From positions 1-48,517 of IMG/VR virus record IMGVR_UViG_3300044956_001055: a stretch of 48,517 nt of DNA; one strand, written 5' to 3'. Below the pieces are notes generated by a model. It saw only the letters and a program-made list of their open reading frames with translations. It searched no databases and was not told where the DNA came from. How positions within the stretch are numbered: position 1 is the stretch's first letter; the number at the start of each line of letters is the position of its first letter. Origin of the DNA: a virus. This document shows, one piece after another, positions 625 through 25,952 of this stretch. Both the position numbers and the translations under genes were made by a program.

Positions 625-1590
625 ATGAATATTTTTTGGCCAGATATACATAAAAATCTTACTAGAAATATAGCCAAAGCCCTCTCTTTACTTGGGCATA
701 ATCTTATTTTACCTAGCGCCCAGTATTTACCATCAAATTTTCCACCAAAGCAATTCAATCAATGGATTTGGAATACTTCGTGGACCCAAGAAAAAGCAAA
801 TTTAGAATTTCAGACAAATAATATTAAAGTTTTAAGTAAAGAAGAAATTATTGATCTTAAACCAGATATAATATTTATTACCAGCTTTGAAACTCAATTT
901 GAAATACTTAATGGAATATGGCCATATGTTAAAGATAGCAGCAAACTAGCTTGCTATAGCGGTAATGATTATTGGGACGGAGCCTATCCTTTTTATATTA
1001 TTAAAAATTATCTTTGCGCAGATTATACAGGTTTTCTTTTAGCAAATAAATATAAAATAAATCACCTCTGCTATAAACCTTGGGTGGACTACGATAGATG
1101 CACTTTTAATGGGCCAACTGATGGTAATATAGTAGGTATTTATATTTCAGAATATGAAAAGAATTTTAATCAAGAATACAATATGAGTCGCGAGCTTCAA
1201 AAATTGACCCCATATATAGATTATCATTATCATACTAATAGTTCCCAAGAAGAATTAACCAAAACATTAAAATCAAGCATAGCTACTCAGCACATTAAAC
1301 ACCTTGAAGGTTACGGTATAGCAGTAATTGAAAGTATGGCTTGTGGCAAGCCAGTATTTATGCATCGTAGAATGGCTCAAAATAAAAGTCTTATGCAGTG
1401 GAGCATAGAAAATGTTACTGCGTTATTCTTTGAAAGCGAATATGAATATATAGCCAAACTAAAAGCATTATACGAAAGCAAAGATTATAGATATTTTCTT
1501 CAAAATACCACCGCAAATATTATAAGACAAATAATTGACAATCAAAGAGAAACAGAAAAACTTGGACATTTTCTTAATAATCTAGTATAA
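625..1590 (+). CDS. GT-B glycosyltransferase, GT4-like
   Basis: This 321-residue protein has the C-terminal hallmark of family GT4 retaining glycosyltransferases: an E-x7-E motif (E228 GYGIAVI E236) followed by SMACGKPVF, the part that binds the nucleotide of the sugar donor. The N-terminal half begins with the usual beta strand (NIFWPDIHKN) of a Rossmann-like acceptor domain. No membrane segment is evident, so it should act in the cytoplasm. It opens a run of glycan genes. Donor and acceptor cannot be told from sequence. The ATG at 625 lies shortly after a TATAAT box and has no clear Shine-Dalgarno sequence. Confidence 0.75.
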   Translation: MNIFWPDIHKNLTRNIAKALSLLGHNLILPSAQYLPSNFPPKQFNQWIWNTSWTQEKANLEFQTNNIKVLSKEEIIDLKPDIIFITSFETQFEILNGIWPYVKDSSKLACYSGNDYWDGAYPFYIIKNYLCADYTGFLLANKYKINHLCYKPWVDYDRCTFNGPTDGNIVGIYISEYEKNFNQEYNMSRELQKLTPYIDYHYHTNSSQEELTKTLKSSIATQHIKHLEGYGIAVIESMACGKPVFMHRRMAQNKSLMQWSIENVTALFFESEYEYIAKLKALYESKDYRYFLQNTTANIIRQIIDNQRETEKLGHFLNNLV

Positions 1591-1591
1591 T
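1563..1591 (+). promoter_or_regulatory. Sigma70-like promoter, leaderless arrangement
   Basis: TGGACA (1563-1568), 17-nt spacer, TATAAT (1586-1591), inside the end of the preceding gene. The GTG start codon at 1599 lies 7 nt after the -10 box, so transcription would start at or next to the start codon. Confidence 0.55.
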
Positions 1592-1598
1592 TTTTATA

Positions 1599-2432
1599 GT
1601 GAAAATTTGGCTCTGCGGAATTACTCAAAACGAAAAGCAGAATATTGATGATATGACAAAAGATATATATCAATATTTTGATGGCTTAATCTTTGTAGAC
1701 GGTGGATCAACAGATGGTACACTAGACATATTAAACGCAAGAAAAGGCCAAGGAAAGATCATAAACAGAGAATGGTCAAATGACCATGATCTCCAAATGA
1801 ATGGTTTTTTAAGGTCTAATATTATACAAAATGGAGATTGGTTTATAATAAGAGATAGTTGCGAAAGATTAAATATAGACTGGGTTAAGAATTTGCGTAA
1901 TTTTATAGAGAATTTCTTAGACAAAAATAAAATAAATAGTTGCGTTGATAGACAAAAAGCTTTTCTTGTTAAATATTTTGATGATATGATATTTCAAGGT
2001 AGCCCGCATTGGGGATTACAAGGTATGAGGCCAGGATACATTGATCTCTACGAATACTATGGAAAAAATCAACAACTATTTGCTTGGGAGGAGAGACCAT
2101 CTCAAAGAAAGCATTATATTGATAGTGATATGAAGTATTACTTTGTTTATGGAAGATCTAATCATTGCGTTCTTCATTATTATGATAATGGTAGAACTTC
2201 AGAAAGATATCAACAACAAGAAAGTATAAGACAGCAATTTAGAGCATATTGTGAAGGTCTTCGGATAGAATTCAAATTAGAATCATTGATTAATTACTGG
2301 AAAAATAACTCAATCAATCAAATTATGAAAGAATTTATTAATAACGAAAGATTAATAAGAAGATTTTATAGATTAAATATACTTAACGAAAGCGTAGAAT
2401 CTATAGATAAAAATGAAGAATGGAGAATATAA
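1599..2432 (+). CDS. GT-A glycosyltransferase, GT2-like
   Basis: The 277-residue protein starts like family 2 glycosyltransferases, with a first strand (KIWLCGITQNEKQNI) and then FVDGGSTDGT, the classic GT2 nucleotide-binding loop. The position of the metal-binding DxD motif holds RDSCERL instead, so the metal ligand is atypical. It is probably a cytoplasmic inverting transferase. The start is a GTG at 1599, 7 nt downstream of a TATAAT box and without a Shine-Dalgarno site. It overlaps or abuts the methyltransferase gene that follows. The sugar cannot be assigned. Confidence 0.7.
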   Translation: MKIWLCGITQNEKQNIDDMTKDIYQYFDGLIFVDGGSTDGTLDILNARKGQGKIINREWSNDHDLQMNGFLRSNIIQNGDWFIIRDSCERLNIDWVKNLRNFIENFLDKNKINSCVDRQKAFLVKYFDDMIFQGSPHWGLQGMRPGYIDLYEYYGKNQQLFAWEERPSQRKHYIDSDMKYYFVYGRSNHCVLHYYDNGRTSERYQQQESIRQQFRAYCEGLRIEFKLESLINYWKNNSINQIMKEFINNERLIRRFYRLNILNESVESIDKNEEWRI

Positions 2433-2434
2433 AA

Positions 2435-2803
2435 ATGCAGCATTTTTACGAAAATATACAAGGATGGTTTGATTATCCAGATTTATATAAATATTATATT
2501 AATAACGCCAAAGATAATTTTAAATCAATAGAAATTGGAGTTTATAAAGGCAGAAGTACAGCCTTTATGGGTGTAGAAATTATTAATAGTAATAAAAAAT
2601 TAACTCATTATGCCCTAGATCATTTTTATGGTAATAATGAACATAGAGAAGAAGGCAATCCTAACTATACTCCAGAAGCAATTGATGGTACATTATGTAA
2701 TCTTTTTTTAAAAAATATAGAACCAGTAAAAGATGTTATTGTACCGATAAACAAAGATTCAAGAGAAGCACATAAAGATTTTGAAAATAATTTTTTGATT
2801 TAA
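2435..2803 (+). CDS. SAM-dependent methyltransferase, N-terminal part (frameshifted)
   Basis: This encodes the first two thirds of a class I methyltransferase of the Methyltransf_24 type: the SAM-binding motif I is SIEIGVYKGRST. The frame stops at 2803, just where the next conserved strand is due. The rest (DLIFIDGHHGYEE onward) continues in another frame to 2994. The break lies at a run of six T (about 2792-2797); one extra T restores a single protein of about 187 residues. The ATG at 2435 is preferred over 2420 because GGAG at 2422-2425 lies 9 nt before it. Such enzymes often methylate sugars in glycan clusters. Either an assembly error or a genuine mutation. Confidence 0.65.
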   Translation: MQHFYENIQGWFDYPDLYKYYINNAKDNFKSIEIGVYKGRSTAFMGVEIINSNKKLTHYALDHFYGNNEHREEGNPNYTPEAIDGTLCNLFLKNIEPVKDVIVPINKDSREAHKDFENNFLI

Positions 2804-2994
2804 TATTCATAGATGGACATCATGGATACGAAGAATGTTTGACAGATATGAAATTATGGTATCCTAAATTAAAGAAGAATGGAATTTTTGCTGGACATGA
2901 TCTATGGACAGAATCTGTTCAAAGGGCAGTTTATGAATTTCTAAATCGAGATTTTACAAATTTTTCTGGATGCTGGTTTCATATTAAAAAATAA
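2804..2994 (+). pseudogene. Methyltransferase C-terminal part, displaced frame
   Basis: In the frame beginning near 2798 the sequence reads DLIFIDGHHGYEE, then an alternating helix/strand region with GIFAGHDLW, up to a TAA at 2992-2994. FIDGHHGYE is a recognised motif of Methyltransf_24 enzymes and has no start codon of its own. The next gene starts with ATG immediately after the stop, as expected if this is the true 3' end of the methyltransferase gene. Confidence 0.7.
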
Positions 2995-3894
2995 ATGAAA
3001 ATAGCAGATTGCTTTATGTATTTCAATGAAAAAGATATCGCATATCTTAGAATTAAAGAATTATATGATGCTGTAGATTACTTTATAATTAATGAAGCAA
3101 CAAAGACTCACCAAGGACAGAATAAAGAATTATTTTTTTGGAAAGACGAAAGACTTAAAGAATTTAAAAATAAAATAATTTATTCTCCAATAGAACTAGA
3201 TGGAAGATTTGACGCTTTAATGCCAAAATTTTTTCCAGATGCAAAAATTGGTGCAAAAGAGCACGAACAAAGAATAAGACTTTTAGAACAAATTGAACCT
3301 CTAAATTTAGATAATTTAGATACAGTAATGATTTCAGATTGTGATGAAATTCCCAATAAAAATATTTTTCAAGAAATGATAAAATATCCAATTGTTGCAT
3401 TAAATCAAATGTTTTTTGTTCATTATATTGATGTTTATACAAATAAGAATGTTACAGGAACTGTAGCTTGTAAATATGAAGGATTAAAATATTTAAATAC
3501 TTTATGTTTTGGCATGGGACTTCAACTACTAAGAAGAGATAAAGATTTTATGCCAAGAATAGAAAACGGTGGATGGCATTACTCTTATATGGGAGGACCT
3601 AAAACGATGAGCGAAAAAGTTGTTTCTATTTACGACGGTAATCCAGATTCTCAATGGAAAACAGAAGAAGCAGCTCAACAATTAATTGATGAAAGCATTA
3701 AAAATAGGCAAAGTCCATTTTCTCAAGAACCAATTGCTATATTAGATTTTAAATATGCAACATTTGCTGATTTAAACTTTATAACAGCAAAGCAAGGCGG
3801 CTGGCAAAAAGTATCCGCTAGATGTCAAATACATCCTAAAGTATTAGAATTAGATTTTAATGGAGATTTTGAAAATTTGAGGTATAAAAAATGA
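2995..3894 (+). CDS. Glycosyltransferase family 17-like protein
   Basis: The 299-residue protein matches the GT17 pattern (family of beta-1,4-mannosyl-glycoprotein GlcNAc transferases): N-terminal DCFMYFNEKD, then FIINEATKTHQG, the metal-site motif ISDCDEIP, and a late GGWHYSYMGG. The length is normal for bacterial and viral members. It is probably cytoplasmic and adds a hexosamine or related sugar to a growing glycan. The ATG directly follows the stop of the methyltransferase frame, and the gene overlaps the next one by 4 nt, so translation is probably coupled. Confidence 0.8.
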   Translation: MKIADCFMYFNEKDIAYLRIKELYDAVDYFIINEATKTHQGQNKELFFWKDERLKEFKNKIIYSPIELDGRFDALMPKFFPDAKIGAKEHEQRIRLLEQIEPLNLDNLDTVMISDCDEIPNKNIFQEMIKYPIVALNQMFFVHYIDVYTNKNVTGTVACKYEGLKYLNTLCFGMGLQLLRRDKDFMPRIENGGWHYSYMGGPKTMSEKVVSIYDGNPDSQWKTEEAAQQLIDESIKNRQSPFSQEPIAILDFKYATFADLNFITAKQGGWQKVSARCQIHPKVLELDFNGDFENLRYKK

Positions 3895-8147: not shown

Positions 8148-8149
8148 TA

Positions 8150-8178
8150 TTGATTTTTATTTAAATTAAGGATAATAT
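8150..8178 (+). promoter_or_regulatory. Sigma70-like promoter, leaderless arrangement
   Basis: TTGATT (8150-8155), 17-nt spacer, TAATAT (8173-8178); the ATG of the dehydratase gene is at 8185, 6 nt further on. An AAGGA at 8168-8172 is rather far from the ATG (12 nt) and would be outside such a transcript. Confidence 0.5.
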
Positions 8179-8184
8179 CATATT

Positions 8185-9330
8185 ATGAACTCAAATTTTC
8201 AAGAAACATATTATGGCAAAAAGATAGATACTTGCAATATTCTTAATATTGAAGATGCCAGCAGGATAATTAACGGAAGGAAAACGGTAGTAATAACTGG
8301 CGTTACTGGTCAAGATGGTAGTCATATGGTGGATTTTTTACTTAAAAATACAGACTATTTAATATTTGGCGGAGTCAGAAGATTAAGCGTTTATAATCAT
8401 GAAAACATTAGACATATTGATTCTGATCGATTTTATTTAATAAATTTCGATTTAACAGACTCTCATTCAATAGCAAGAACAATAGAAAAATTACAACCTG
8501 ATTATTTTATTAATTTTGCCGCTCAAAGCTTTGTTGCAAGTAGCTGGGATTTCGCAAGACAAACTTGGCAAACTAATTCTACAGCAGTTCTTGATATCTT
8601 AGAAGCTATAAGACTTTATAAACCATCTTGTAGGCTTTATCAAGCTGGTTCAAGTGAGGAATTTGGAAATGTTCAATATATACCTCAAGATGAAAATCAT
8701 CCACTAAGGCCAAGAAGTCCATATGGCGCAAGTAAAGCCGCTTCTAGACAATTAGTAAAAGTATATAGGGAATCTTATAATATTTACGCAATACAAGGAT
8801 GGCTGTTCAATCACGAAGGCATTAGAAGAAACGAACAGTTTGTGACAAGAAAAATTACAAAAAATGTAACAAGAATTTATAATGCTATAAAAAATAATGA
8901 AAATTTTAAACCACTAGAGCTTGGAAATATTGAAGCAAAAAGAGATTGGAGTGATGCAGAGGATTTTGTAGAAGGAGTATGGATGATGTTAAATCAAGAT
9001 AAGTATAATCCAAATTATAATGGTATTCCAAAAGAGTACATATTTTCTTCTAATGAAACTCATACAATTAAAGAATTCGCAGAGAAAGCTTTTAAATTTG
9101 CGGGTATCGAAGGCCAATGGATTGGAGAGGGAGAACATACGATTTTTATTGATAAAAACAAAAAAACTTTAATACAAATCAATCCAGCATTTTATAGGCC
9201 AGCAGAGGTTGAAATATTATTAGGAGACTCTACAAAAGCTAGAAAAGAATTAAATTGGAAACCTAGAATTTCATTTGACAATTTAGTAAAGAAAATGGTA
9301 GAATGGGATATTGAAAATATCAAATCATAA
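8185..9330 (+). CDS. gmd: GDP-mannose 4,6-dehydratase
   Basis: An extended short-chain dehydrogenase/reductase: NADP-binding glycine loop TGVTGQDGS (G39, G42, G45), GSSEEFG active-site segment (GSSEMFG in most Gmd enzymes) and the catalytic Y180-x3-K184 in SPYGASK, followed by NHEGIRR and FVTRKIT, which are characteristic of Gmd. It converts GDP-mannose to GDP-4-keto-6-deoxymannose, the precursor of GDP-fucose, rhamnose and perosamine. Length 381, with an N-terminal extension of about 33 residues. The final epimerase/reductase is not in the window, so the host or another locus must supply it. It serves the adjacent GT11 and GT10 genes. Confidence 0.92.
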   Translation: MNSNFQETYYGKKIDTCNILNIEDASRIINGRKTVVITGVTGQDGSHMVDFLLKNTDYLIFGGVRRLSVYNHENIRHIDSDRFYLINFDLTDSHSIARTIEKLQPDYFINFAAQSFVASSWDFARQTWQTNSTAVLDILEAIRLYKPSCRLYQAGSSEEFGNVQYIPQDENHPLRPRSPYGASKAASRQLVKVYRESYNIYAIQGWLFNHEGIRRNEQFVTRKITKNVTRIYNAIKNNENFKPLELGNIEAKRDWSDAEDFVEGVWMMLNQDKYNPNYNGIPKEYIFSSNETHTIKEFAEKAFKFAGIEGQWIGEGEHTIFIDKNKKTLIQINPAFYRPAEVEILLGDSTKARKELNWKPRISFDNLVKKMVEWDIENIKS

Positions 9331-9655
9331 GCTTTGTCAATTTATAGTAAAAAAATTTATTAAAGGTAATATTAATTGGCCAAGAGAGATTAAAATAGCG
9401 CAAAAATTAGTAAAAAGATTCAATTCTTTTGAGTTTTGGTATAATCTTAGAGAGCTAGGAAGTCCGCCTCCATCCTTAGCCTGGTTTCTTAAATCCGAAG
9501 GAAAAGCTTTCATATTAAAGGAATATGAAGAATTTAATTTAAATTTAAATCAAGAACTCATAAATTTAAATAAAAATAAAATAGGAGAAGATAAAAAAGT
9601 TTGCCAAAAACCAAAAACACTGGTAGAATTTATTAGATATGGGAAGAAAACTTAG
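9311..9655 (+). CDS. Unknown protein between gmd and the recombinase
   Basis: A 114-residue, Lys-rich protein of mixed helical character with no motif I recognise. Its only plausible start is a TTG at 9311, which overlaps the end of the dehydratase gene by 20 nt; no ATG occurs in the frame. It overlaps the recombinase gene by 17 nt, and the recombinase promoter lies inside its 3' end. The central part (WYNLRELGSPPPSLAWFL) looks like a small folded domain. Function unknown. Confidence 0.6.
   Translation: MKISNHKLCQFIVKKFIKGNINWPREIKIAQKLVKRFNSFEFWYNLRELGSPPPSLAWFLKSEGKAFILKEYEEFNLNLNQELINLNKNKIGEDKKVCQKPKTLVEFIRYGKKT
9601..9629 (+). promoter_or_regulatory. Sigma70-like promoter of the replication block, leaderless
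   Basis: TTGCCA (9601-9606), exactly 17 nt, TAGAAT (9624-9629). The ATG of the recombinase is at 9639, 9 nt after the -10 box, so the transcript would start about 2 nt before the start codon. Confidence 0.6.
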
Positions 9656-10781
9656 AGAAGAGGCGGTTGAATTATCTGGACCAAGCGCGTCAGATAGATT
9701 ATTATCTTTTTTAAAAGATAATAAAGAAGATCATTATAATTTTCAAGAAGAAACTTATTATAAAGTATCTACTGGTAGTCTTAATTTAGATATAGCTACA
9801 AGCGGTGGTTTATGTCCAGGTTTGCATAGATTTATTGGTATGAATGAAGGCGGTAAAACGTCGGAGGCTCTGGAGGTAGCTAAAAATTTTCTCAAAACAA
9901 TAGACCAGTCTAGGGCATTACTTTTTAAAGCGGAAGGTCGTCTTAGCAAAGAAGTCAAAGAAAGATCTGGAATTAAATTTGTAACTGACCCAAAAGAATG
10001 GGTGGATGGCACATGTTTTGTATTTGAATGCAATATTTTTGAAACTGTATCAGAATTAATGAAAGATTTGATTCAATCAAATGATGAAAATAAAAGATAT
10101 ATCTTTATTCTTGATTCGGTTGATGGTCTTGTTACAAAAAACGATAAAGAAAAAACGTTTAGTGAAGCAACTAAAGTGGCGGGTGGCGCAGTTATTTCAT
10201 CAATGCTTATGAAGAAGATTTCTCTTGCGTTATCTAAACGTGGACACATGGCTATTTTTATAAGTCAAGTTCGCTCAGATATTAAGCTTGATCCTTACGC
10301 CGCAAATAAAGAAGTAAGACAAACTAGCGCGACTGGCGGTAATGCTTTATTGCATTTTGCAAATTGGATTCTTGAATTTGAACCTCGCTATAACAAAGAC
10401 CTTATTCTTGAAAAACCAAATGAAAAATATGATCCAGTAAAAAATAAAATCATTGGACATAATGTAAAAATTGCTATTAAAAAATCCACAAACGAAACAA
10501 CTAACTCTAAAGTTCAATACCCAATTAAATATGGCAGGAAAGACGGCTCATCTGTTTGGAGAGAGTATGAGATAATAGATCAAATATTGTCTTGGGAATT
10601 TGCTACAGCTAAAGGCGCGTGGGTAACATTTTCGGATGAGATTATAGAAGAATTTAAAAAATCTAATATTGAACTTAAAAAACAACATCAAGGCATAGAT
10701 AATCTAAGGTCTTATTTAGAACAAAACAAAGAAATTACAAATTACTTTTATACTAAGTTTATTAACACGCTTGCATCATGA
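9639..10781 (+). CDS. RecA/UvsX-like recombinase
   Basis: A 380-residue RecA-fold ATPase. Walker A is G67-MNEGG-K73-T74; Walker B is YIFILDSVDGL; the stretch ISQVRSDI precedes the region matching DNA-binding loop L2, followed by TSATGGNALLHFA. An acidic residue equivalent to the RecA catalytic Glu lies in LFKAEGRL. It should form filaments on ssDNA and drive strand exchange in recombination-dependent replication and repair. The C-terminal part is specific to phage members. It opens the replication block with its own promoter and overlaps the next gene by ATGA, a nuclease that may work with it. Confidence 0.88.
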   Translation: MGRKLREEAVELSGPSASDRLLSFLKDNKEDHYNFQEETYYKVSTGSLNLDIATSGGLCPGLHRFIGMNEGGKTSEALEVAKNFLKTIDQSRALLFKAEGRLSKEVKERSGIKFVTDPKEWVDGTCFVFECNIFETVSELMKDLIQSNDENKRYIFILDSVDGLVTKNDKEKTFSEATKVAGGAVISSMLMKKISLALSKRGHMAIFISQVRSDIKLDPYAANKEVRQTSATGGNALLHFANWILEFEPRYNKDLILEKPNEKYDPVKNKIIGHNVKIAIKKSTNETTNSKVQYPIKYGRKDGSSVWREYEIIDQILSWEFATAKGAWVTFSDEIIEEFKKSNIELKKQHQGIDNLRSYLEQNKEITNYFYTKFINTLAS

Positions 10782-11197: not shown

Positions 11198-11212
11198 GTG
11201 TAAAAGTTTTTG

Positions 11213-11491
11213 GTGACAAATAAGAAAAAAACCTTTAAAATACCAGATTCTCTTCTTAAACAAATTGACGAATGCAGTTTTGGCGGATATATTCTTTTTA
11301 ATTTTTCAAGCAAAGGTGAGCCTCAAGTATTTACAAAATTTGATAACCAAATAAATGCTATGGCTCTTCTATATTACATTAATACATGGAGCCAGAGCAT
11401 AGATCAATTAAATTTAGAAGCAACCACAGACCAAATAGCAAAGACTAATCAAGATGACGATAATTTTGACGAACCAGAAAATAAAGATTAA
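11213..11491 (+). CDS. Unknown small acidic-tailed protein
   Basis: About 92 residues starting at GTG 11213 (a TTG lies one codon earlier). The protein has a short alpha/beta body (GGYILFNFSSKG and a helix with YYINTW) and a strongly acidic C-terminal tail (QDDDNFDEPENKD), which suggests contact with a DNA-binding partner or mimicry of nucleic acid. It sits between the nuclease and the helicase gene. No family recognised. Confidence 0.6.
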   Translation: MTNKKKTFKIPDSLLKQIDECSFGGYILFNFSSKGEPQVFTKFDNQINAMALLYYINTWSQSIDQLNLEATTDQIAKTNQDDDNFDEPENKD

Positions 11492-11494
11492 AAC

Positions 11495-11523
11495 TTGACT
11501 TTTAATTTTTGTTTTGGTATCAT
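11495..11523 (+). promoter_or_regulatory. Sigma70-like promoter of the helicase operon, leaderless
   Basis: TTGACT (11495-11500), 17-nt spacer, TATCAT (11518-11523), in the short gap before the helicase gene. The ATG at 11533 lies 9 nt beyond. This placement also rules out the earlier in-frame start at 11509, which lies inside the promoter. Confidence 0.7.
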
Positions 11524-11532
11524 ATATATTGG

Positions 11533-13017
11533 ATGATTTACTCTTTACAAGTAGAAAGACATGTACTAAGCGGGTTACTTAAACATCAAGACCTCTTTGC
11601 GGATATTGATGTGTTTTTAACTGAAAATGATTTTTATAATGATGTCCATTCTACTATATATACTGTATTTAAAAATATAAGACACAAAGGAGAAAATGTA
11701 GATAAAATATTATTAGCCGAGAAGATAAAGAATCTGGGGATTTCATTTAAAGACGAAATTAACATCTTTGATTATATTGATAATTTAAGTTTTTCCCAAA
11801 TCACGGAAGAAGCAACCATGACTGCTTGCAAAGAATTAATTAAGCTAAGAATAAGAAGAGAGATTTCTCAAACAGCAGATAAACTAAAAGAATATGTTAA
11901 TAAAAACTCAGAAGATTCGGTAGATCAGATTATTGGTAAAATAGATCAAATATACAATAAAAAAATATCATCATATTCTGAAAATGATGCGCCAATTAAT
12001 ATTTTTGAAGGAGTAGAAGATCTTATTGAGGATATTGGAAATACGCCAAAGGATGAAACAGGATTAATTACTCCATATTCAGAATTTAATAGGATGTATG
12101 GTGGTTTAAAGAATAATAATATTTATGCTATTGCGAGCAGGCCTGGTCAAGGGAAATCGACCTGGCTAAATGATATTTGTTTTAAAACTTCTATTAATGC
12201 AAAAAATAAAGCTAAAACATTAATTCTTGATACAGAAATGCAAACGATGGATATACAATTGCGCATGGTAGCATCTTTAACAGATGTTCCAGTTTGGTAT
12301 CTTGAAACTGGTAACTGGCGTAAGAATGAAGAGATGACAAAGAAAGTAAGAGCAGCTTGGGAAAAAGTAAAAACATACGAATATTTCCATTACCATGTAG
12401 GAAATAAAAATATAGATCAAGTATGCTCTATTATTCGCAGATGGTATCTTTCAAAAGTTGGTCGCGGAAATCAAGCGATGATTGCTTATGACTATATTAA
12501 ATTAACTGGCGAAAGGGTCGGAGCAAATTGGGCAGAGCATCAAGCCATCGGGGAAAAGATTGATAAACTCAAAAGAGTTTCAGAGGAAATACATTGCCCT
12601 ATTGTTACTGCTATGCAATTAAATAGGACTGGCGAAAGTTTTAATAGAAATTCTAATAATGTCGTAGATGATAGCTCTGTCATTTCTCTTTCGGATAGAC
12701 TGCAATGGTTTGCTTCATTTGTAGCTATTTTTAGAAGAAAGACTTTAGACGAAGTTACGCTAGATGGTCAAGCGTTTGGAACACATAAATTAATTTCAAC
12801 AAAAACTAGATTCCAAGGTAAAGACGCGGCTGGGCATCAAGATCTTGTCCGAAGACTAGATTCTTCTGGAAAAGAAATATGGGCGCAAAATTATCTTAAT
12901 TATCAAGTAACAAATTTTAATATAGAAGAACGCGGGTCTTTAAGAGATGTTGCCGAAAGTCAAAGAGAACAATATGAACTAAATGATTCTAATAGAAATG
13001 ATGGAGAACTATTATGA
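11533..13017 (+). CDS. dnaB: Replicative DNA helicase, DnaB family
   Basis: The N-terminal helical domain begins YSLQVERHVLSGLL, as in DnaB. The RecA-like motor has Walker A G205-QG-K208-S209-T210 preceded by IYAIASRPG, the strand LILDTEM (motif 1a), Walker B with MIAYDYIKL, and a motif 3 region IVTAMQLNR. The 494-residue length is close to that of bacterial DnaB. It unwinds DNA 5' to 3' at the fork and should pair with the primase encoded two genes downstream. The ATG at 11533 is chosen because the promoter ends at 11523. ATGA overlap with thyX. Confidence 0.9.
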   Translation: MIYSLQVERHVLSGLLKHQDLFADIDVFLTENDFYNDVHSTIYTVFKNIRHKGENVDKILLAEKIKNLGISFKDEINIFDYIDNLSFSQITEEATMTACKELIKLRIRREISQTADKLKEYVNKNSEDSVDQIIGKIDQIYNKKISSYSENDAPINIFEGVEDLIEDIGNTPKDETGLITPYSEFNRMYGGLKNNNIYAIASRPGQGKSTWLNDICFKTSINAKNKAKTLILDTEMQTMDIQLRMVASLTDVPVWYLETGNWRKNEEMTKKVRAAWEKVKTYEYFHYHVGNKNIDQVCSIIRRWYLSKVGRGNQAMIAYDYIKLTGERVGANWAEHQAIGEKIDKLKRVSEEIHCPIVTAMQLNRTGESFNRNSNNVVDDSSVISLSDRLQWFASFVAIFRRKTLDEVTLDGQAFGTHKLISTKTRFQGKDAAGHQDLVRRLDSSGKEIWAQNYLNYQVTNFNIEERGSLRDVAESQREQYELNDSNRNDGELL

Positions 13018-14563: not shown

Positions 14564-15519
14564 AAATATTATCTGCTTCAAGAATTAAAACTCTTGAAAC
14601 TTGTTCTTGGGTTTATTGGAATAATTATCATATTAAAGCTCCTCAGACTCAAAACGATGGTAGTTTGAGAGGCACGATTTGCCACATAATTTTTGAGCTT
14701 CTTTTAAATCCAAAGCATAAAAATCATTATAATAAAATACTAAAAGCAAATTCTATTACTGGAAGCAAAGCTATAACTAAATTAGTTAAAAAATTAAAAT
14801 CAAAAGTAAAGCTTGATGAGTCAAATTTTGAAATATTAGATCAGATGATTATGGTTGGATTAAAGCATGATTTTTTTGGAGAAAAAGATGGAAAGATTGT
14901 GTCTCCAGAATATGCTTTTGAAATTAAAAATGATAATCCTAAATATCATATTAAGGGTTTTATTGATAAGCCTATAAAATCAAAAAATAAAATGGTTATA
15001 ATTGACTATAAAAGCTCTAAAGCTAAATTTAGGGGAGATGACCTAGAAGCCAATATTCAAGCTATGATGTATAGTTTAGCAAGTAAAAAATTATGGCCAA
15101 AATTAAAACCTATCATAAGATTTCTATTTCTTAGGTTTCCCAAACAACCAATACAAGAGCTAGAGTTTACAGAGGACCAAATAAAAGGATTTGAGCATTA
15201 TTTAGAGCATATTAATGACTATATTAATAATTTTGATGAAAATTCGGCTAAAGTTAATTTTGCTATAGATAACGATAAAAGTAAATGGATGTGTGGTGTT
15301 GGTAATTGGAAATGTCCATACAAAGACCCTTATGATTATTATGTTAAATTAAATAATAAAAATGAAATAGTAGAATCTAATTTTGATGGTAATTTTAAAA
15401 ATATAGAGGGGTTTATAATAGAGAAAAGAAAATACCAAGGATGTCCTAGATTTAATACTCAAACGCCCAAAATGAAAGACGAATTTCTTGATCTAAATAA
15501 AGATGAGTTTTTAGATTGA
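14545..15519 (+). CDS. RecB/Cas4-like PD-(D/E)XK nuclease
   Basis: The 324-residue protein follows the PDDEXK_1 layout: SASRIKTLETCSWVYW at the N-terminus, an RGTICHIIFE helix with the conserved His, D141 in KGFIDKP, the catalytic D154-Y-K156 in IIDYKSSK, and a QAMMYSLA helix with Gln and Tyr. Cysteines at 20, 250, 257 and 300 could hold an iron-sulfur cluster as in Cas4/AddB, but the C-terminal spacing is not the usual one, so this is uncertain. It probably resects DNA ends in recombination with the RecA-like protein. No cas1, cas2 or repeats are present. Confidence 0.75.
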   Translation: MEKESLKILSASRIKTLETCSWVYWNNYHIKAPQTQNDGSLRGTICHIIFELLLNPKHKNHYNKILKANSITGSKAITKLVKKLKSKVKLDESNFEILDQMIMVGLKHDFFGEKDGKIVSPEYAFEIKNDNPKYHIKGFIDKPIKSKNKMVIIDYKSSKAKFRGDDLEANIQAMMYSLASKKLWPKLKPIIRFLFLRFPKQPIQELEFTEDQIKGFEHYLEHINDYINNFDENSAKVNFAIDNDKSKWMCGVGNWKCPYKDPYDYYVKLNNKNEIVESNFDGNFKNIEGFIIEKRKYQGCPRFNTQTPKMKDEFLDLNKDEFLD

Positions 15520-15544
15520 AATTAAACTAAATCTATAATATACT
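15516..15544 (+). promoter_or_regulatory. Sigma70-like promoter of the polymerase operon, leaderless
   Basis: TTGAAA (15516-15521, overlapping the upstream stop codon), 17-nt spacer, TATACT (15539-15544). The ATG at 15552 lies 7 nt after the -10 box, so the transcript would begin essentially at the start codon. Confidence 0.65.
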
Positions 15545-15551
15545 AAATAAA

Positions 15552-16298
15552 ATGATACCATTGTTTAAATCTCATTATTCATTAGGAAGATCTATATTAA
15601 CCTTAGAGGACAAGAACGAATCTGATGATTATCCAGATTCGATTATTCAAATAGCAAAAGAGCATAAATTAAAAGAAATATCTATTGTAGAAGATAATAT
15701 GTCGTCTTTTTTAGAGGCATATACTAATACAAAAAATAATAATATTAAATTAAATTATGGATTAAGAATTTCTATCACCGAATCAACAACAGATAAGAGC
15801 GAAGAATCAATACAAAAAACATCAAAAATAATACTATTTTTTAAGAACAAAAATGGCTATGAAAAATTAACTAAACTATTTAGTATTGCTGCAAAATCTG
15901 GTTTTTATTATGGCCCTAGACTTGATTACAAAATTTTACAAGAAAATTGGAATGAAGATTTAATTTTAGTTATACCATTTTATGATTCATTTATATTCAA
16001 TAATACTTTAAAAAATATGATTTGCATACCTCAATTTGAATTCACAAAACCAATTATGTTTATTGAAGATAATGATTTACCATTTGATGATATTATTAAA
16101 AATAAAGTTAAAAAATACGCAGAAGAAAACTCTTTAGAAGTTTATAAAGTAAAAAGTATATACTACAATAAAAAGAAAGACTTCAAATCTTACTTAACAT
16201 TTAGATGCATTAATAACAGAAGCATATTAAACAAGCCAGAACTAGAACATATGTCTAGTAATGATTTCTCTTTTGAGAGCTATATGAGGACAAGATAA
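15552..16298 (+). CDS. DNA polymerase III alpha, separate PHP domain
   Basis: A 248-residue stand-alone counterpart of the N-terminal PHP domain of DnaE. It starts PLFKSHYSLGRSIL, where DnaE has the L-x-V-H-S-x-Y-S segment, has IIQIAKEHKLKEISIVEDN where DnaE has its second strand (usually TDHGN), and ends CINNRSILNKPELEHMSSNDFSFESYM, aligned with the end of the PHP region. Metal ligands are degraded (K6-S7-H8 rather than H-x-H; E47-D48-N49 rather than TDH), so it is probably structural. The polymerase core is encoded separately from 17131. It overlaps the exonuclease gene by 1 nt (TAATG). Confidence 0.7.
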   Translation: MIPLFKSHYSLGRSILTLEDKNESDDYPDSIIQIAKEHKLKEISIVEDNMSSFLEAYTNTKNNNIKLNYGLRISITESTTDKSEESIQKTSKIILFFKNKNGYEKLTKLFSIAAKSGFYYGPRLDYKILQENWNEDLILVIPFYDSFIFNNTLKNMICIPQFEFTKPIMFIEDNDLPFDDIIKNKVKKYAEENSLEVYKVKSIYYNKKKDFKSYLTFRCINNRSILNKPELEHMSSNDFSFESYMRTR

Positions 16299-16936
16299 TG
16301 GACGAACACTTATTAAGATATGATAAGAAAAAGACTTTAGTTTTTATTGATTGTGAGACTTTTAACTTATGTTTAAATTTTTGCCATAATTTACCTTGGC
16401 AAATAGCAATGATTAAAGTAATAGGAGATAAAAAAGTTGATGAGAAAAATTTTTATCTTAAATGGCAAACAGACTTAAAAATTAGTCAAGACGCAGCAAG
16501 AATAACAAGATATGATCATAAAAAAGTTCAAAAAGGAGGTCACGATCCAAAAGAAATATTTCCTACTATAAAAGATTGGCTAGATCATGCTGATTATATT
16601 ATTGGGCATAACACATTAGGCTTTGATATTTATCTAATAAAAGAGTATTATAAATTCATGGGTTTAAAATCTAACCACCTAGTATCTAAATTTATTGATA
16701 CAAATGCAATAGCAAGAGGTATTAAATATGGAACTCCTTTTAATAAAAGTGATAATTTAATTGAATACCAATACAAAATATATCACACAAAAAAGAAAAA
16801 TGTAAAAAGTTCTTTGACTGTTTTAGGTAAAGAGAATGGTATAGATCATGATTATGAGAAACTGCATGACGCTATTAATGATCTTGACTTAAATTTAAAA
16901 GTATGGAATAAATTGAAATGGCAAATAGAGGTATAA
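16298..16936 (+). CDS. DnaQ-like 3'-5' exonuclease (proofreading)
   Basis: A 212-residue DEDDh exonuclease: D18 and E20 in VFIDCETF (motif Exo I), D110 in GHNTLGFD (Exo II), and H190 with D195 in HDAINDLD (Exo III). All five catalytic residues are present. Its position between the PHP-domain gene and the polymerase core gene points to a proofreading role in a multi-subunit polymerase. The order is reminiscent of PolC, where an exonuclease is inserted within the PHP domain. Overlap of 1 nt with the gene upstream and a 1-nt gap to the next. Confidence 0.85.
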   Translation: MDEHLLRYDKKKTLVFIDCETFNLCLNFCHNLPWQIAMIKVIGDKKVDEKNFYLKWQTDLKISQDAARITRYDHKKVQKGGHDPKEIFPTIKDWLDHADYIIGHNTLGFDIYLIKEYYKFMGLKSNHLVSKFIDTNAIARGIKYGTPFNKSDNLIEYQYKIYHTKKKNVKSSLTVLGKENGIDHDYEKLHDAINDLDLNLKVWNKLKWQIEV

Positions 16937-16937
16937 T

Positions 16938-17153
16938 ATGGCTTCGTTAGATGATATATATGATATGATTCAAAAATTAGATGATTCTAATATTGAATAT
17001 CTTCTTATTACTATTCAAAAAGGTAAGAAGAATGGCAAAGCGGACGTCTTTTATTCTTTAAAAGATAAAAATTCAATGAAAATATTAACTCAAGGATTAA
17101 AAGAATTTACAAAAGAAGTAGATAGGATAAATGATGAAGGCAAATTTGATTAA
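16938..17153 (+). CDS. Unknown small protein in the polymerase operon
   Basis: A 71-residue charged protein, mostly helical with a central strand pair (EYLLITIQKGKKNGKADVFYSL). It overlaps the polymerase core gene by 23 nt and has GAGG 7-8 nt before its ATG, one of the few Shine-Dalgarno sites in this block. It may be an accessory or linker subunit of the split polymerase, but no family is recognised. Confidence 0.6.
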   Translation: MASLDDIYDMIQKLDDSNIEYLLITIQKGKKNGKADVFYSLKDKNSMKILTQGLKEFTKEVDRINDEGKFD

Positions 17154-19731
17154 TTATTCAGAAGATAAGTCTTTCTTTTCTAAGTTTGAAGATATAAATC
17201 TAGATCTTCACGGCGTAAGATTGCCAGAATTTAATATTGATAGTTCAGCAAAAAGACATTTAAACTTAAGCGAAGATGTATCAAATTATGAGTTTTTAAG
17301 AGCTTTATCTTTAAATGGATTTAAAGAACTAAAAATAGACAAGAATCAACAAGAGTATAAAAAATATACAGATCGAGCAAAGCACGAACTAGAAACTTTA
17401 AAAGAGTTAGGATTTATAGATTATATATTATTGGTTTGGGACGTTATTAATTTTTGTAAAACGAACGATATCCCGGTCGGGTTAGGTAGAGGTTCTGCGG
17501 CTGGATCATTAATATTATATTTAATTGGAGTTACAAGGATAGACCCAGTTAAATATAACCTTTATTTTGAAAGATTTATATCTACAATTAGAGCCAAAAA
17601 GCAAGTTATTAACAAGATAACATATTTGGATGGCAGTTTAATGTGCGACGTAGATCTTGATATATGTTATTATAATAGACATAAAGTTCTTGAATATCTT
17701 GAAAACAAATTTAAAGGTAAAACTAGTAAAATACTAACTTTAAATACCCTTAGCGGAAAACTTCTTATAAAAGAATGTGGTAAAATTGTTGCAGAGAAAT
17801 CAGAAGAAGAAATGACAGCAACTTCATCATTAATCCCCAAGATATTCGGTCAAGTAAAAGACATTACGTCTGCATATGAAGAAATACCCAAATTCAAAGA
17901 ATGGTGCGATGATAATAAAGAAGCATACGAAATTGCTTTAAAGTTAAGAGATTTAATTAAGAATAAGGGGGTTCATCCTTCTGGAGTATTGCTATCTTAT
18001 GATGATCTAGAAAAAGTTTGCCCGACAGAATTATCTTCAGATAAAGAGGCAGTCTCAAGCTTTGATATGAATTGGGTTTCTTTATTTAATATTAAATTAG
18101 ATATCTTAGGATTAAGAAGCGTTTCTGTTGTTGATGATGTATGCAAAAGAATAAATATAAAAATATCAGATATTGATCTTAATGATCCATCTATATATAG
18201 AGCCCTACAAGACCTAAGAAGTCCTCATGGTTTATTTCAAATAGAAGCAGATACAAATTTTAAGGTTTGTCAAAAAGTAAAACCTAAAAATCTAGAAGAG
18301 CTAAGCGGAGTATTAGCTCTTGCAAGACCTGGCGCTTTACAGTTTGTTGATAAATATGCAGCACATACAAATCTTCAACAATCAGAAAGTATACACCCAT
18401 TCTTCGATGATATCCTAAAACAAACTGGCGGGGTAGCTCTTTATCAAGAGCAGCTTATGCAAATGGCAAACAAGATTGGCTTTACTTTGGATGAAGCAGA
18501 AATTTTAAGAAGGATTGTAGGTAAAAAGAAAACTGATGAGATTAAAACTTGGCAGAAAAAAATTGAAACAAAAGTAAAAGAAAATAAATTGGCAAAAGAA
18601 GTCGGAGATATCCTATGGAAAATTTTAGAAGATTCAGCAAATTATTCTTTCAATAAATCTCATTCCCTTGCTTATGCAGCTTTAGCGGCAGTTACAATTT
18701 ATCTTAAGTTTAATTATCCACAAGAATTTTTCTTATCCTTATTAAAAATGAGCAAAAATGAGCCAGATCCAATTGGCGAAATATCTAAAATACAAAAAGA
18801 AATGCAAGCGTTTGCGATTGAGCTATTACCTCCACACATTATTAAATCAGAAATGGATTTTTCGCTAGAAAATAGAGACATAAGATTTGGCTTGCTTTCA
18901 ATTAAAGGTATTAGCGATAAATCAATAGAAAAATTAAATAGTTTTAGAAATAAGTATTCTATCAAATTTGAAATATTCCAAGCCGCAGAAGAAGCAGATC
19001 TTAATATTGGAGTATTATCTGCCTTAATTCAAGCTGGCGCGCTAAGTGGATTTAATCAATCAAGAAGCAAAATAGTATTAGAAGCTCAACTATGGAACAT
19101 CTTAACCACTAAAGAAAAAAAGTATTGCGTTTCATTCGCTGAGCAGTTTGATTATGACTTAATTAAAATTATTAAACATTTAAATAAATTTACTGATGAA
19201 AAAAATCACGCTATTATCAAAGATAATAGACTTAAAACAATTAAAAATAAATACGAACCTTATCTTCAAATATATAATCAAAACAATAAAAGCGAAAGCT
19301 TTGCTAACTGGTATTATGAGAAAAAGCTACTAGGTTATACTTACGATAAAACTTTAAAAGATATATTTAATGAAAAAAGGCAAGACTTAATATATATTAA
19401 TAATATATATGACTATCCAATTAATTCTAAAACTATCTTTGTTGGACAAATAGAAGAAATATTTTCTGGCGTATCAAAAAGTGAAAAGAAAACTAGATAT
19501 GTAAGATTAAAAGTATCAGACGAAACAGGAACGATAAATTGTTTATTATTTAATGATAATATAGAAAACAATAAATTACTTAATAACTCCAAAAACTTTG
19601 AAGAAGGTAATATTGTTATTGTTAAAGGCATGATAAAGCAAGATTGCTTATTTGCTGATTTAGTTGCAATACAAGATCATCAAATTTATATGAAATTAAA
19701 TGATTTAAAAAAGATAGATAAAAATAATTGA
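17131..19731 (+). CDS. dnaE: DNA polymerase III alpha subunit, catalytic core without PHP
   Basis: An 866-residue C-family polymerase that lacks the PHP domain. The N-terminus resumes where DnaE continues after PHP (NINLDLHGVRLPEF-like segment, residues 20-40). The palm has G119-RGSAAGS; the catalytic aspartates correspond to D173 and D175 in CDVDLD and D324 in KLDILGLRS. The finger/HhH region includes YQEQLMQMANKIGF and NKSHSLAYA. An OB-fold domain lies at the C-terminus (TIFVGQIEEIF, DETGTINCLLF). No beta-clamp motif was identified with confidence. The ATG at 17131 or 17134 starts within the small upstream gene. Confidence 0.92.
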   Translation: MMKANLINYSEDKSFFSKFEDINLDLHGVRLPEFNIDSSAKRHLNLSEDVSNYEFLRALSLNGFKELKIDKNQQEYKKYTDRAKHELETLKELGFIDYILLVWDVINFCKTNDIPVGLGRGSAAGSLILYLIGVTRIDPVKYNLYFERFISTIRAKKQVINKITYLDGSLMCDVDLDICYYNRHKVLEYLENKFKGKTSKILTLNTLSGKLLIKECGKIVAEKSEEEMTATSSLIPKIFGQVKDITSAYEEIPKFKEWCDDNKEAYEIALKLRDLIKNKGVHPSGVLLSYDDLEKVCPTELSSDKEAVSSFDMNWVSLFNIKLDILGLRSVSVVDDVCKRINIKISDIDLNDPSIYRALQDLRSPHGLFQIEADTNFKVCQKVKPKNLEELSGVLALARPGALQFVDKYAAHTNLQQSESIHPFFDDILKQTGGVALYQEQLMQMANKIGFTLDEAEILRRIVGKKKTDEIKTWQKKIETKVKENKLAKEVGDILWKILEDSANYSFNKSHSLAYAALAAVTIYLKFNYPQEFFLSLLKMSKNEPDPIGEISKIQKEMQAFAIELLPPHIIKSEMDFSLENRDIRFGLLSIKGISDKSIEKLNSFRNKYSIKFEIFQAAEEADLNIGVLSALIQAGALSGFNQSRSKIVLEAQLWNILTTKEKKYCVSFAEQFDYDLIKIIKHLNKFTDEKNHAIIKDNRLKTIKNKYEPYLQIYNQNNKSESFANWYYEKKLLGYTYDKTLKDIFNEKRQDLIYINNIYDYPINSKTIFVGQIEEIFSGVSKSEKKTRYVRLKVSDETGTINCLLFNDNIENNKLLNNSKNFEEGNIVIVKGMIKQDCLFADLVAIQDHQIYMKLNDLKKIDKNN

Positions 19732-19756
19732 CATTTATATAGATAAATAGTAACAT
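19728..19756 (+). promoter_or_regulatory. Sigma70-like promoter, leaderless arrangement
   Basis: A perfect TTGACA (19728-19733) overlaps the polymerase stop codon, with 17 nt to TAACAT (19751-19756). The ATG at 19765 follows after 8 nt. Confidence 0.65.
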
Positions 19757-19764
19757 AAAGTAAT

Positions 19765-20298
19765 ATGATATCATTTTATAAACCTAATAGTAAAAATAGT
19801 GGCACTGCATGCAGTTTCAGCGTAAATCCTAGAGATGGGTCTATTTGGAGCTCTTTGATTAAGCAAAGCGGTTGGAATGAAAAAACAAAAACTGGATCTT
19901 TTATGGACAACAAAGATAATCCACAAAAAAGTGCAAAGATTAAATATTCAATAACAGAAGCAGCAGGATTACTAGAAGCTCTAGATAAAAATACAGAGTT
20001 CTCAGCTTATCACTCTTCAGAGCAACAAGTAATAAAGATTAAATTTGCGCCTTATATTAGAGATGAAAAACAAGTAGGATTTTCTTATAGCGTTCAAAAA
20101 GAAAGCAAAGAGAACATAGAAAACAAACAATCATATTTAATTGGATTTTATTTTAATGAATCAAGACTATTAAAAGAATTTTTACAATATTCGCTAAATT
20201 CTATATTTGAATCACAAAGAATAGAAACAATCAAAAAAATTAAAAATTCCTCCAAAGAAAAGCCCGCAGATAATCAAGAAGATAGCGAACTTTGGTAA
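19765..20298 (+). CDS. Candidate single-stranded DNA-binding protein
   Basis: A 177-residue protein with a beta-rich body (ACSFSVNPRDGSIWSSLIKQSGWN, AKIKYSITEAAGLLEAL, FSAYHSSEQQVIKIKFAPY, VGFSYSVQKE), a helix, and a short acidic C-terminal tail ending EDSELW. An acidic tail with aromatic ends is typical of SSBs that recruit partners. The strand/helix pattern resembles Whirly/PC4-like folds more than the classical OB fold. It is expressed from its own strong promoter directly after the polymerase gene. Assignment rests on context and tail only. Confidence 0.45.
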   Translation: MISFYKPNSKNSGTACSFSVNPRDGSIWSSLIKQSGWNEKTKTGSFMDNKDNPQKSAKIKYSITEAAGLLEALDKNTEFSAYHSSEQQVIKIKFAPYIRDEKQVGFSYSVQKESKENIENKQSYLIGFYFNESRLLKEFLQYSLNSIFESQRIETIKKIKNSSKEKPADNQEDSELW

Positions 20299-20300
20299 TC

Positions 20301-22214: not shown

Positions 22215-22228
22215 ATTATTATTTTAAA

Positions 22229-23380
22229 ATGAAACTTCTTGATACATACGCAACTAATACAGGATCAAAGATTGACCAACCTTTTATATACTCTAAGTTC
22301 TTTCCTTTGCCTTTGAAAAAATTTGTTACTTTTCAATCTCAAACTCCTTATGACTCAAGAAATTATTCTTATTGGCAAGAAGTCATTAATTTAATACATA
22401 CTTATTTAATAAAAAATGATATTCATATAATTCAATTAGGCGTAAAAGATGAGAAGCCTCTTAATGGAGTAGTTAATCTTTTGGGTCAAACCAATATTAA
22501 TCAACTAGCATATGTTATTGAAAATGGCATTTTACACTTTGGACCAGACAGCTTAAGCGTTCATTTAGCTTCATATTATAATAAACCAATCGTGGCACTC
22601 TATAGCATAAGTAATCCTAATGTTGCTGGGCCACATTTTGGAGATAAGAACAAGCATCTTTTATTGAAAGGATATGAAAGAGTAGGCAATAAAAAACCTT
22701 CATATTCTCAAATAGAAGACCCAAAATCAATAGACACTATTAAACCAGAAGAAGTCGCTATTGGAATATTAAATTTTCTTAATATAGAATATGCAAGATT
22801 GCCAGAAACAATATATTTTGGACCAGATTATAATGTTAAAACTTTTGAAGTGATTCCAGACGATAATTTAGATATAAATTCTATACCAATTGAAAATCCA
22901 ATTATTAGAATGGATTATCTCTTTAACGAACAAACTTTTGAAAAAATTGTTTCTTCTAAAAAATCAATAGTTTTTACTAATAAACCCATTAAAAAAGATC
23001 TTATACAAAAATATAAAAAAAATATAAATCAATTAATATATATTATAGATGAAAATAATGATGTTAATTTTGTTAAATTATTAAAAAATAATTCGATTAA
23101 TTATGTGCTTCTTTCTTTTCTAGAAGAAGATGTTCTAAATAAATATAAATTAGATTACATGGACTATAATCTAATAATTAATAGAAAATATAAAACAAAA
23201 GCAGATACAAATATAAAAGATATTAATAATTTGCATTATAACTCTTCAAAAGTAATACATTCTTCAAAAGGGCAGTTTATATCTAAATATGATTGGATTC
23301 ATGGAATAGGAGATAAAGTGGTAGAAGATCCTGACTTTTGGAAAGAGAGCGATAATTTTTATATTTTTAAGTTGACTTAA
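22229..23380 (+). CDS. GT9 C-terminal half plus unknown domain
   Basis: Residues 1-190 complete a GT9 enzyme: FVTFQSQTPYDSR strand, INLIHTYL helix, and VVNLLGQTNINQLAYVI followed by GPDSLSVHLASYYNKPIVALY, the nucleotide-sugar binding site of heptosyltransferases. The remaining 190 residues have no recognised family. An open -1 frame runs back from the ATG at 22229 through LNLNYYFK into the preceding gene, so the two genes probably encode one protein of about 1,028 residues. If really separate, this half would lack the GT9 acceptor domain. Confidence 0.65.
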   Translation: MKLLDTYATNTGSKIDQPFIYSKFFPLPLKKFVTFQSQTPYDSRNYSYWQEVINLIHTYLIKNDIHIIQLGVKDEKPLNGVVNLLGQTNINQLAYVIENGILHFGPDSLSVHLASYYNKPIVALYSISNPNVAGPHFGDKNKHLLLKGYERVGNKKPSYSQIEDPKSIDTIKPEEVAIGILNFLNIEYARLPETIYFGPDYNVKTFEVIPDDNLDINSIPIENPIIRMDYLFNEQTFEKIVSSKKSIVFTNKPIKKDLIQKYKKNINQLIYIIDENNDVNFVKLLKNNSINYVLLSFLEEDVLNKYKLDYMDYNLIINRKYKTKADTNIKDINNLHYNSSKVIHSSKGQFISKYDWIHGIGDKVVEDPDFWKESDNFYIFKLT

Positions 23381-23400
23381 TTTAATAATTAAAGTATACT
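23372..23400 (+). promoter_or_regulatory. Strong sigma70-like promoter, leaderless arrangement
   Basis: TTGACT (23372-23377), 17-nt spacer, TATACT (23395-23400). The ATG at 23407 lies 6 nt after the -10 box, at the expected transcription start. This is the cleanest member of the set. Confidence 0.75.
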
Positions 23401-23406
23401 CATAAA

Positions 23407-24216
23407 ATGAGCCCAAAAATTAAAGATGATCAGAATACAATTTCAATAGGCAGCTCGGAACTAAACCAAGCATTATCCAATAACCAAATAGCATCAGACA
23501 ATACGGCGACGCAAACCCCGCCAAATCTGATAACAAGAAATAAATATGGTCTTTTAGATAGCCCAAATATTAATTATATTTATCATGATGATGGATCAAT
23601 AAACTGGCGCAAAATGGTAAAAACAGAATATCTTGTGCCAAATCGTCAAAAGACTCAAGAAACCGATGTAACAAAATTAGAAGACAAAGATTTATTAATA
23701 TTACTAGGCGGAATAAAAGAGCTAGCTCAGATCCGAGGGTATTCAAAAGTAGAATATAGAGTCGTGGCCGCCTCGGAAAGTTATTTCGCTACAAGCTGTA
23801 GGATTACTTGGCTTCCAAATTTTGAAACAAATGATAAAGAAATAATTTTTGAAGCTCTTGCAGACGCAACTTCTAATAACACAAAATCTTTTGCTCGCTT
23901 TTTTTTAGCAGCAATAGCCGAAAATAGGGCATTTGTTCGTTGTGTTAGGAATTTCCTAAAAATTAATATTGTTTCACAAGAAGAACTTGGAGATGCAAAA
24001 CTAATTGATGATTCGATTTCTATTCAAGAAAATCCCACTTCTCCTCAGTCTCTTTTGGAAAAGACAATGAAAGATAAAAATATAACTTTTGACGCTCTTA
24101 AGAAAAGATTAATTAAAGAAAAATTTGAAGGCGCAGAAGATATTAATAATATAACTGATATACCTAAAGTTAAAATTTTTGAATTAATTGACAGAATTAA
24201 AAAAATTAAAGATTAA
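23407..24216 (+). CDS. Candidate Rad52-like single-strand annealing protein
   Basis: A 269-residue protein: disordered N-terminus, then INWRKMVKTEYLVPN, an EYRVVAASESYFATSCRITW strand pair, and a helix AARFFLAAIAENRAFVRCVRN-like region (residues about 160-180) that resembles the conserved AETRAIARAL helix of Rad52/Sak-type annealing proteins. The last 60 residues look like a small helical SAP/LEM-type domain. Context supports a recombination role: RecA-like, RecB-like and SSB-like genes are upstream, and it has its own promoter. The family match is by pattern, not by search. Confidence 0.4.
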   Translation: MSPKIKDDQNTISIGSSELNQALSNNQIASDNTATQTPPNLITRNKYGLLDSPNINYIYHDDGSINWRKMVKTEYLVPNRQKTQETDVTKLEDKDLLILLGGIKELAQIRGYSKVEYRVVAASESYFATSCRITWLPNFETNDKEIIFEALADATSNNTKSFARFFLAAIAENRAFVRCVRNFLKINIVSQEELGDAKLIDDSISIQENPTSPQSLLEKTMKDKNITFDALKKRLIKEKFEGAEDINNITDIPKVKIFELIDRIKKIKD

Positions 24217-25928: not shown

Positions 25929-25952
25929 ATTACACTTCTTTTTAAGTGTAAA
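25929..25952. promoter_or_regulatory. Divergent control region with inverted repeat
   Basis: TTACACTT (25930-25937) and AAGTGTAA (25944-25951) form a perfect 8-bp inverted repeat with a 6-nt centre. Each arm carries GTGTAA, the core of a motif that precedes several other structural units here. One arm faces each gene: the minus-strand start is at 25920 and the plus-strand start at 25973. It could be a pair of divergent promoters or an operator. Confidence 0.5.

Follow-up and report, generated by a model that had tools for sequence, protein, structure and literature searches.

The window analysed here (IMG/VR virus record IMGVR_UViG_3300044956_001055, positions 1 to 48,517) comes from an uncultured tailed phage; it is a 48.5-kb fragment with a GC content of 29.8%. 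Our analysis of this window and its relatives makes it very probable that these phages use two promoter classes: sigma70-type promoters predicted to give leaderless or near-leaderless early mRNAs, and a second element, [A/T]GTGTAAT, predicted to act with a phage-encoded sigma factor to give later mRNAs that are either leaderless or led by a Shine-Dalgarno (SD) sequence, depending on the gene. In the mechanism that we propose, host sigma70 RNA polymerase would read the early promoters and begin the transcript of each early operon on the start codon of its first gene or 1-4 nt upstream of it, and ribosomes would load at the 5'-terminal or near-terminal AUG of the early mRNAs. Later in infection, the phage-encoded sigma factor probably redirects the polymerase to [A/T]GTGTAAT, a -10-like element that lacks a -35 box and is placed, according to the gene, either for a leaderless mRNA or some 20-40 nt before the start, leaving a leader that contains an SD. 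The labels "early" and "late" follow gene function (replication versus virion genes), and we infer the timing, the actual 5' ends and leaderless translation initiation from the patterns described below.

Genes on the plus strand between 625 and 24216 encode glycosyltransferase-like proteins, a nucleotide-sugar epimerase, a UvsX-like recombinase, a DnaB-like helicase, a primase, an exonuclease and, in two pieces (a PHP part and a main part), DNA polymerase III (Pol III) alpha. Late-type genes occupy the region from 24307 onward; some of them encode minor tail proteins, and one a tape-measure-like protein of 2648 aa. A generic E. coli sigma70 matrix, untrained on these data, was used to score the upstream regions, and a start was counted when a site scoring at least 8.5 had its -10 box ending 4-10 nt before it. 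Seven of the 45 starts in the window pass, and the mean over 500 shuffles of the upstream regions was 0.11, with a maximum of 1. These seven starts (9639, 23407, 9311, 1599, 11533, 19765 and 15552) score 9.6-11.4; the highest score among the other starts is 5.4.

All seven strong sites lie on the plus strand. The UvsX/RecA gene (9639-10781) is preceded by TTGCCA-N17-TAGAAT (9601-9639), 9 nt before its ATG, and the DnaB-like helicase gene (11533-13017) by TTGACT-N17-TATCAT (11495-11533), also at 9 nt. TTGAAA-N17-TATACT (15516-15552) lies 7 nt before the ATG of the gene for the Pol III alpha PHP part (15552-16298). Two genes of unknown function, 19765-20298 and 23407-24216, have TTGACA-N17-TAACAT (19728-19765) 8 nt and TTGACT-N17-TATACT (23372-23407) 6 nt before their ATG, respectively. 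TTGACA-N18-TAGAAT (9275-9311; score 11.0) lies 6 nt before the TTG start of gene 9311-9655. The least certain of the strong sites is TGGACA-N17-TATAAT (1563-1599; score 10.8), 7 nt before the GTG of a glycosyltransferase-like gene (1599-2432); this gene has no homologue in the fetched loci, which leaves its promoter without conservation support. The initial annotation had listed seven promoters with 17-nt spacers, and all seven are present at the positions that it gave (with -10-to-start distances of 7, 6, 9, 9, 7, 8 and 6 nt at 1599, 8185, 9639, 11533, 15552, 19765 and 23407). Six of them are strong; the seventh, TTGATT-N17-TAATAT (8150-8185, plus strand), 6 nt before the ATG of the nucleotide-sugar epimerase/dehydratase gene 8185-9330, scores just 5.0, which is within noise, and the site at 9311 had been missed.

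Many relatives of the window were found in IMG/VR, and the group consists of freshwater and marine uncultured bacterial viruses. Neither megablast of positions 1-24000 nor tblastn of the major-tail-like protein found a cultured relative in the phage collection, where the RecA and Pol III matches were remote only, and the clade therefore appears to be uncultured. A search of genome contigs yielded no host, just relatives with 45-49% Pol III identity in contigs binned into metagenome-assembled genomes, whose origin is doubtful. For comparison we kept 80 IMG/VR loci with 61-100% Pol III identity, whose genes were called with a simple open reading frame caller. Site counts from these loci are not phylogenetically independent, and counts of gene families are safer.

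The geometry of the boxes was mapped by scanning 1,830 distinct upstream regions for TTGAC[A/T] and TA...T hexamers and arranging the pairs in a matrix of spacer by distance to the ATG. With a spacer of 17 nt, there were 73, 31, 39, 25 and 15 cases at 6, 7, 8, 9 and 10 nt, respectively, and a 16-nt spacer gave 25 cases at 6 nt. The pair is almost confined to these cells: a 17-nt spacer combined with a distance of 2-5 nt occurred once, and reversed decoy hexamers gave about none. Hits in some other cells (14 x 9 and 20 x 3-4) probably reflect the same TA-rich boxes read in a shifted register. In E. coli numbering, a -10 hexamer that ends 6 nt before a base makes that base +1. The sharp lower edge at 6 nt thus means that the start codon is almost never upstream of +1, and the tail reaching 10 nt corresponds to leaders of at most about 4 nt. 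The clustering at 6-10 nt among relatives bears out the placement proposed in the initial annotation.

The same placement is conserved between orthologues. We anchored orthologues at their starts in the 80 loci, dereplicated the upstream regions at 90% and counted the best sigma70 site ending 4-10 nt before the start. Sites were found in 82% of 22 dereplicated upstream regions of uvsX (9639; 0.9% in shuffled sequence), 95% of 37 for dnaB (11533; 3.5%), 80% of 45 for the PHP part (15552; 2.9%), 88% of 41 for the gene at 19765 (5.1%) and all 29 for the gene at 23407 (4.5%). Most groups of operon-internal and tail genes had a site in 0-10%, and the group of the weak 8185 site had a good one in four of nine dereplicated upstream regions. 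It is true that -10-like hexamers are common in AT-rich sequence and that the 8185 site fits chance. Nevertheless, seven passing starts against 0.11 in shuffles of the window, and 80-100% against 1-5% in the five orthologue groups, leave chance in 30% GC DNA a practically negligible explanation; for the strong sites the shuffles already refute it, and the equal frequency in shuffled sequence that would have spoken against the initial annotation is far from what was found.

Orthologues with as little as about 40% protein identity retain the boxes but differ in the intervening sequence. The site at 9311 lies inside the upstream coding sequence in the window, yet four relatives (L005, L009, L028 and L040) have a TTGAC promoter near the ATG despite a different upstream sequence. 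Similarly, uvsX relatives with unrelated upstream sequence (L003, L007 and L028) have TTGCAT...TATAAT. The uvsX and 9311 boxes thus persist over unrelated upstream sequence, and overlapping coding sequence does not explain them. That some sites (9311 and 9639) fall within upstream coding sequence could also be taken to mean that the conserved hexamers serve as operators, or as some other element of DNA or RNA close to the start codon. We consider this highly improbable, given that the boxes match TTGACA and TATAAT with a 16-17-nt spacer, that the sequence between and around them is variable, and that the distance to the ATG shifts by a few nucleotides while the spacer stays fixed. In L153, a relative that is more distant at about 49% Pol III identity, AAAGGAGTA precedes the ATG of the PHP part; this single case suggests that leaderless placement is a clade-level trait. 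Separately, a run of mostly small genes in L125-L126 (G014:119473-127887) has many promoters resembling TTGAC[A/T]-N16-TATATT exactly 6 nt from the ATG.

Ribosome-binding signals and coding constraint agree with promoters that would deliver leaderless mRNAs. The 80 loci hold 206 distinct leaderless-placed sites, of which 3.4% come with an SD. SD cores occur at 3-6% of leaderless-placed genes, compared with 9.7% of random positions and 26% of all genes, and ATG accounts for 76 of 87 sigma70-type leaderless-placed starts. The ratio of nonsynonymous to synonymous polymorphism (pN/pS) in codons 2-10 is 0.02 for dnaB, 0.02 for the PHP part, 0.07 for the gene at 19765 and 0.14 for that at 23407, which is strong purifying selection in four of the five groups. 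When the 27 nt before the ATG are read in frame, pN/pS rises to 0.5-1.5 and stops are frequent. The low pN/pS after the ATG and the high pN/pS and stops before it indicate that the ATG is the true N-terminus. Start misannotation was rejected on these values and on the conservation of the upstream sites.

As controls, two other phages were run through the same pipeline. In the early regions of T4, eight sites fell within 80 nt of a start; one was at 4-10 nt and four, all with an SD, were at 25-31 nt. No site at 4-10 nt was found in 50 kb of the Pelagibacter phage HTVC008M. These controls bear on the possibility that the promoters are real and their placement a mere by-product of genome compaction, with the first gene translated poorly from these mRNAs and mainly from longer transcripts that enter from upstream operons. 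Coding density is indeed 91-98%, and several -35 boxes in the window touch or overlap the stop codon before them (e.g., 15516). However, the distances are not just short but keep within 6-10 nt and break off sharply at the lower end, T4 and HTVC008M are compact without such placement, and the late-type genes of the same genomes keep leaders of 20-40 nt with an SD when they use one. We therefore regard compaction as an unlikely explanation. Position, conservation, SD absence, N-terminal selection and the T4 control together give strong support to the leaderless reading of the predicted sigma70 promoters made in the initial annotation.

Several observations weigh against this reading. We found no phage translation factor that favours leaderless mRNA. 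A few leaderless-placed genes start with GTG or TTG, and such starts are translated poorly by E. coli on leaderless mRNA (PMC9031893). Selection on codons 2-10 of uvsX looks weak (pN/pS 0.46). Moreover, the 9-10-nt spacings, as at uvsX and dnaB, imply leaders of 1-4 nt, which some ribosomes perhaps handle unlike a 5'-terminal AUG. A phage-encoded bS21 was considered as the cause of a leaderless preference and rejected, as bS21 is absent.

Tail-type genes carry the second element, [A/T]GTGTAAT, which has no -35 box and is preceded by A/T richness without further information. Of the 259 GTGTAA occurrences in the window and eight related genomes, 149 have a gene ATG less than 80 nt downstream, compared with 4-9% for six control hexamers. 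Whole-genome counts of GTGTAA show no excess; the signal is thus in position, not in number. Distances to the ATG are bimodal, with 80 sites at 6-12 nt, of which 2% have an SD, and 47 sites at 18-45 nt, of which 74% have one. SD sequences being frequent only in the long mode provides an internal control: where there is room for a leader there is usually an SD, and where there is no room there is none. The host evidently also uses SD sequences, since the long leaders carry them.

Class membership is consistent among orthologues, with 38 gene families that have only sigma70-type sites, 70 that have only GTGTAA-type sites and one mixed family. By mode, 40 of the GTGTAA families are always short, 22 always long and eight mixed, many of them being single-member families. 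The late class is thus mixed in its start mode, which is usually constant within a gene family. Leaderless and SD-led starts number 76:7 in the sigma70 class and 79:36 in the GTGTAA class (Fisher p = 1e-4, with sites that are not phylogenetically independent). The initial annotation had contrasted leaderless early genes with SD-led tail genes, citing the SD AAGGAGGA at 28713, which is present. The contrast holds in so far as most SD-led starts fall in the late class, but 80 of 127 placed GTGTAAT sites are themselves leaderless-placed.

Both modes occur among the late-type genes of the window. On the minus strand, GTGTAA(T) at 25930-25935 is leaderless-placed, 9 nt before the ATG of gene 25114-25920, and the four members of this family, the window included, have 9, 9, 9 and 19 nt. 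On the plus strand, GTGTAA at 25946-25951 lies 21 nt before the ATG at 25973 of a minor tail protein gene, with GAGG/AAGG as SD in the leader. These two elements stand back to back (TTACACTTCTTTTTAAGTGTAA, 25930-25951) between divergent tail genes, an arrangement kept in relatives, and the pair is a predicted compact bidirectional late-type promoter. The other four GTGTAA(T) sites are on the minus strand. The site at 42263-42268 lies 24 nt before the ATG (42238) of the 2648-aa tape-measure-like gene, with the SD-like AAGGAATAAGG and mostly 19-27 nt in homologues. That at 45858-45863 lies 23 nt before the ATG (45834) of the major-tail-like protein gene, with the SD GGAG and 22-26 nt in five family members. 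The site at 48294-48299 is leaderless-placed, 8 nt before the ATG (48285) of a 169-aa gene, and nine family members have 8-11 nt. The last, at 44619-44624, lies 39 nt before the ATG (44579) of a 74-aa tail gene, with the SD AAGG, and is kept at 24-40 nt. At 44619-44650 on the same strand, a terminator-like G+C-rich stretch and T run is joined directly to this GTGTAAT; a clear hairpin stands at the equivalent place in G005, G014, G021 and other relatives. A further GTGTAA element (11198-11213, plus strand) lies within the replication block, before a gene starting at 11210 (TTG) or 11213 (GTG). It is kept upstream of orthologues, including three (L013, L047 and L050) with a different upstream sequence, and nrdB also carries GTGTAA.

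Two different sigma-70-family-like proteins, found in most relatives, are candidates for recognizing this element. One, of about 200 aa, is similar to sigma regions 2 and 4 (phrog_351, E 3e-12; L115:4125-4751, that is, G012:64125-64751). The other, of about 227 aa, is similar to region 2 and has a cysteine-rich insert (G010:70236-70919). Neither lies within the window fragment, and the link between a phage sigma factor and GTGTAAT is a putative one. T4-type late promoters have a TATAAATA core and no -35 box and are read with the phage sigma factor gp55. The likeness consists in a -10-like element without a -35 box at late genes and perhaps in the sigma-70-family-like proteins encoded by related phage genomes. 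The clade differs in its [A/T]GTGTAAT consensus and in the leaderless placement of more than half of the placed sites, and its link to a sigma factor is a presumed one.

Leaderless phage mRNAs are already known from single genes and from Thermus phages. In phage phiYS40, middle and late transcripts are leaderless (PMC3594737). The clade resembles phiYS40, to which no relationship was seen, nor to other Thermus phages, in having a predicted temporal class of leaderless mRNAs beside ordinary ones. In phiYS40, however, the leaderless class is middle/late and is accompanied by increased host IF2 and decreased IF3, whereas in this clade nearly all starts of the sigma70-type class are leaderless-placed and those of the late-type class are of both kinds (76:7 and 79:36), with timing assigned by gene function. 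The leaderless mRNAs of lambda cI and PY54 cI/cro (PMC4488713) come, as is predicted here, from promoters whose transcripts start at the AUG, but these are single regulatory genes of temperate phages; in this clade the placement is genome-wide, covering 38 sigma70-type families that include the replication machinery. Genes led by a -10 box a few nucleotides before the start codon, without an SD, are also common in Actinobacteria and Deinococcus-Thermus (PMC3160421, PMC12340547). Those TA-led genes are cellular and often depend weakly on a -35 box, whereas this 30% GC phage keeps a strong TTGACA and a strict 17-nt spacing. The untranslated regions of phage AR9 are reported to measure 26-491 nt (PMC5312081). 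In the open-access literature we did not find any phage group described as having nearly all of its sigma70 promoters at leaderless distance.

Beyond the two promoter classes themselves, we lean slightly towards a wider proposal, that of a widespread lineage living mainly on leaderless mRNAs. Transcripts made with host sigma70 would nearly all begin at or next to the AUG, as would more than half of those made with the phage sigma factor, and the initiation mode of each gene would be a conserved setting determined by its promoter-to-start distance. If true, efficient 70S-type initiation would be implied for the host or for a phage-modified ribosome. The clade would constitute a natural large-scale experiment on leaderless translation, in which a leaderless strategy could be tested for a whole virus. 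Available for this are about 100 gene families with a conserved initiation mode, SD-led genes of the same genomes as an internal control, and a late promoter that is likely to be phage-specific. The patterns may also aid the prediction of gene starts and promoters in such phages, and they hint at a host ribosome permissive for initiation at a 5'-AUG.

Two minor observations concern gene content. At 15552-19731 in the window, Pol III alpha is not encoded in one piece: the PHP-like part, an exonuclease and the main part are separate, and this division is kept across relatives. An Rfam scan of the window gave no match above gathering scores; five relatives (L114, L123, L132, L138 and L143) carry a tmRNA gene (RF00023) with an unusually long predicted tag.

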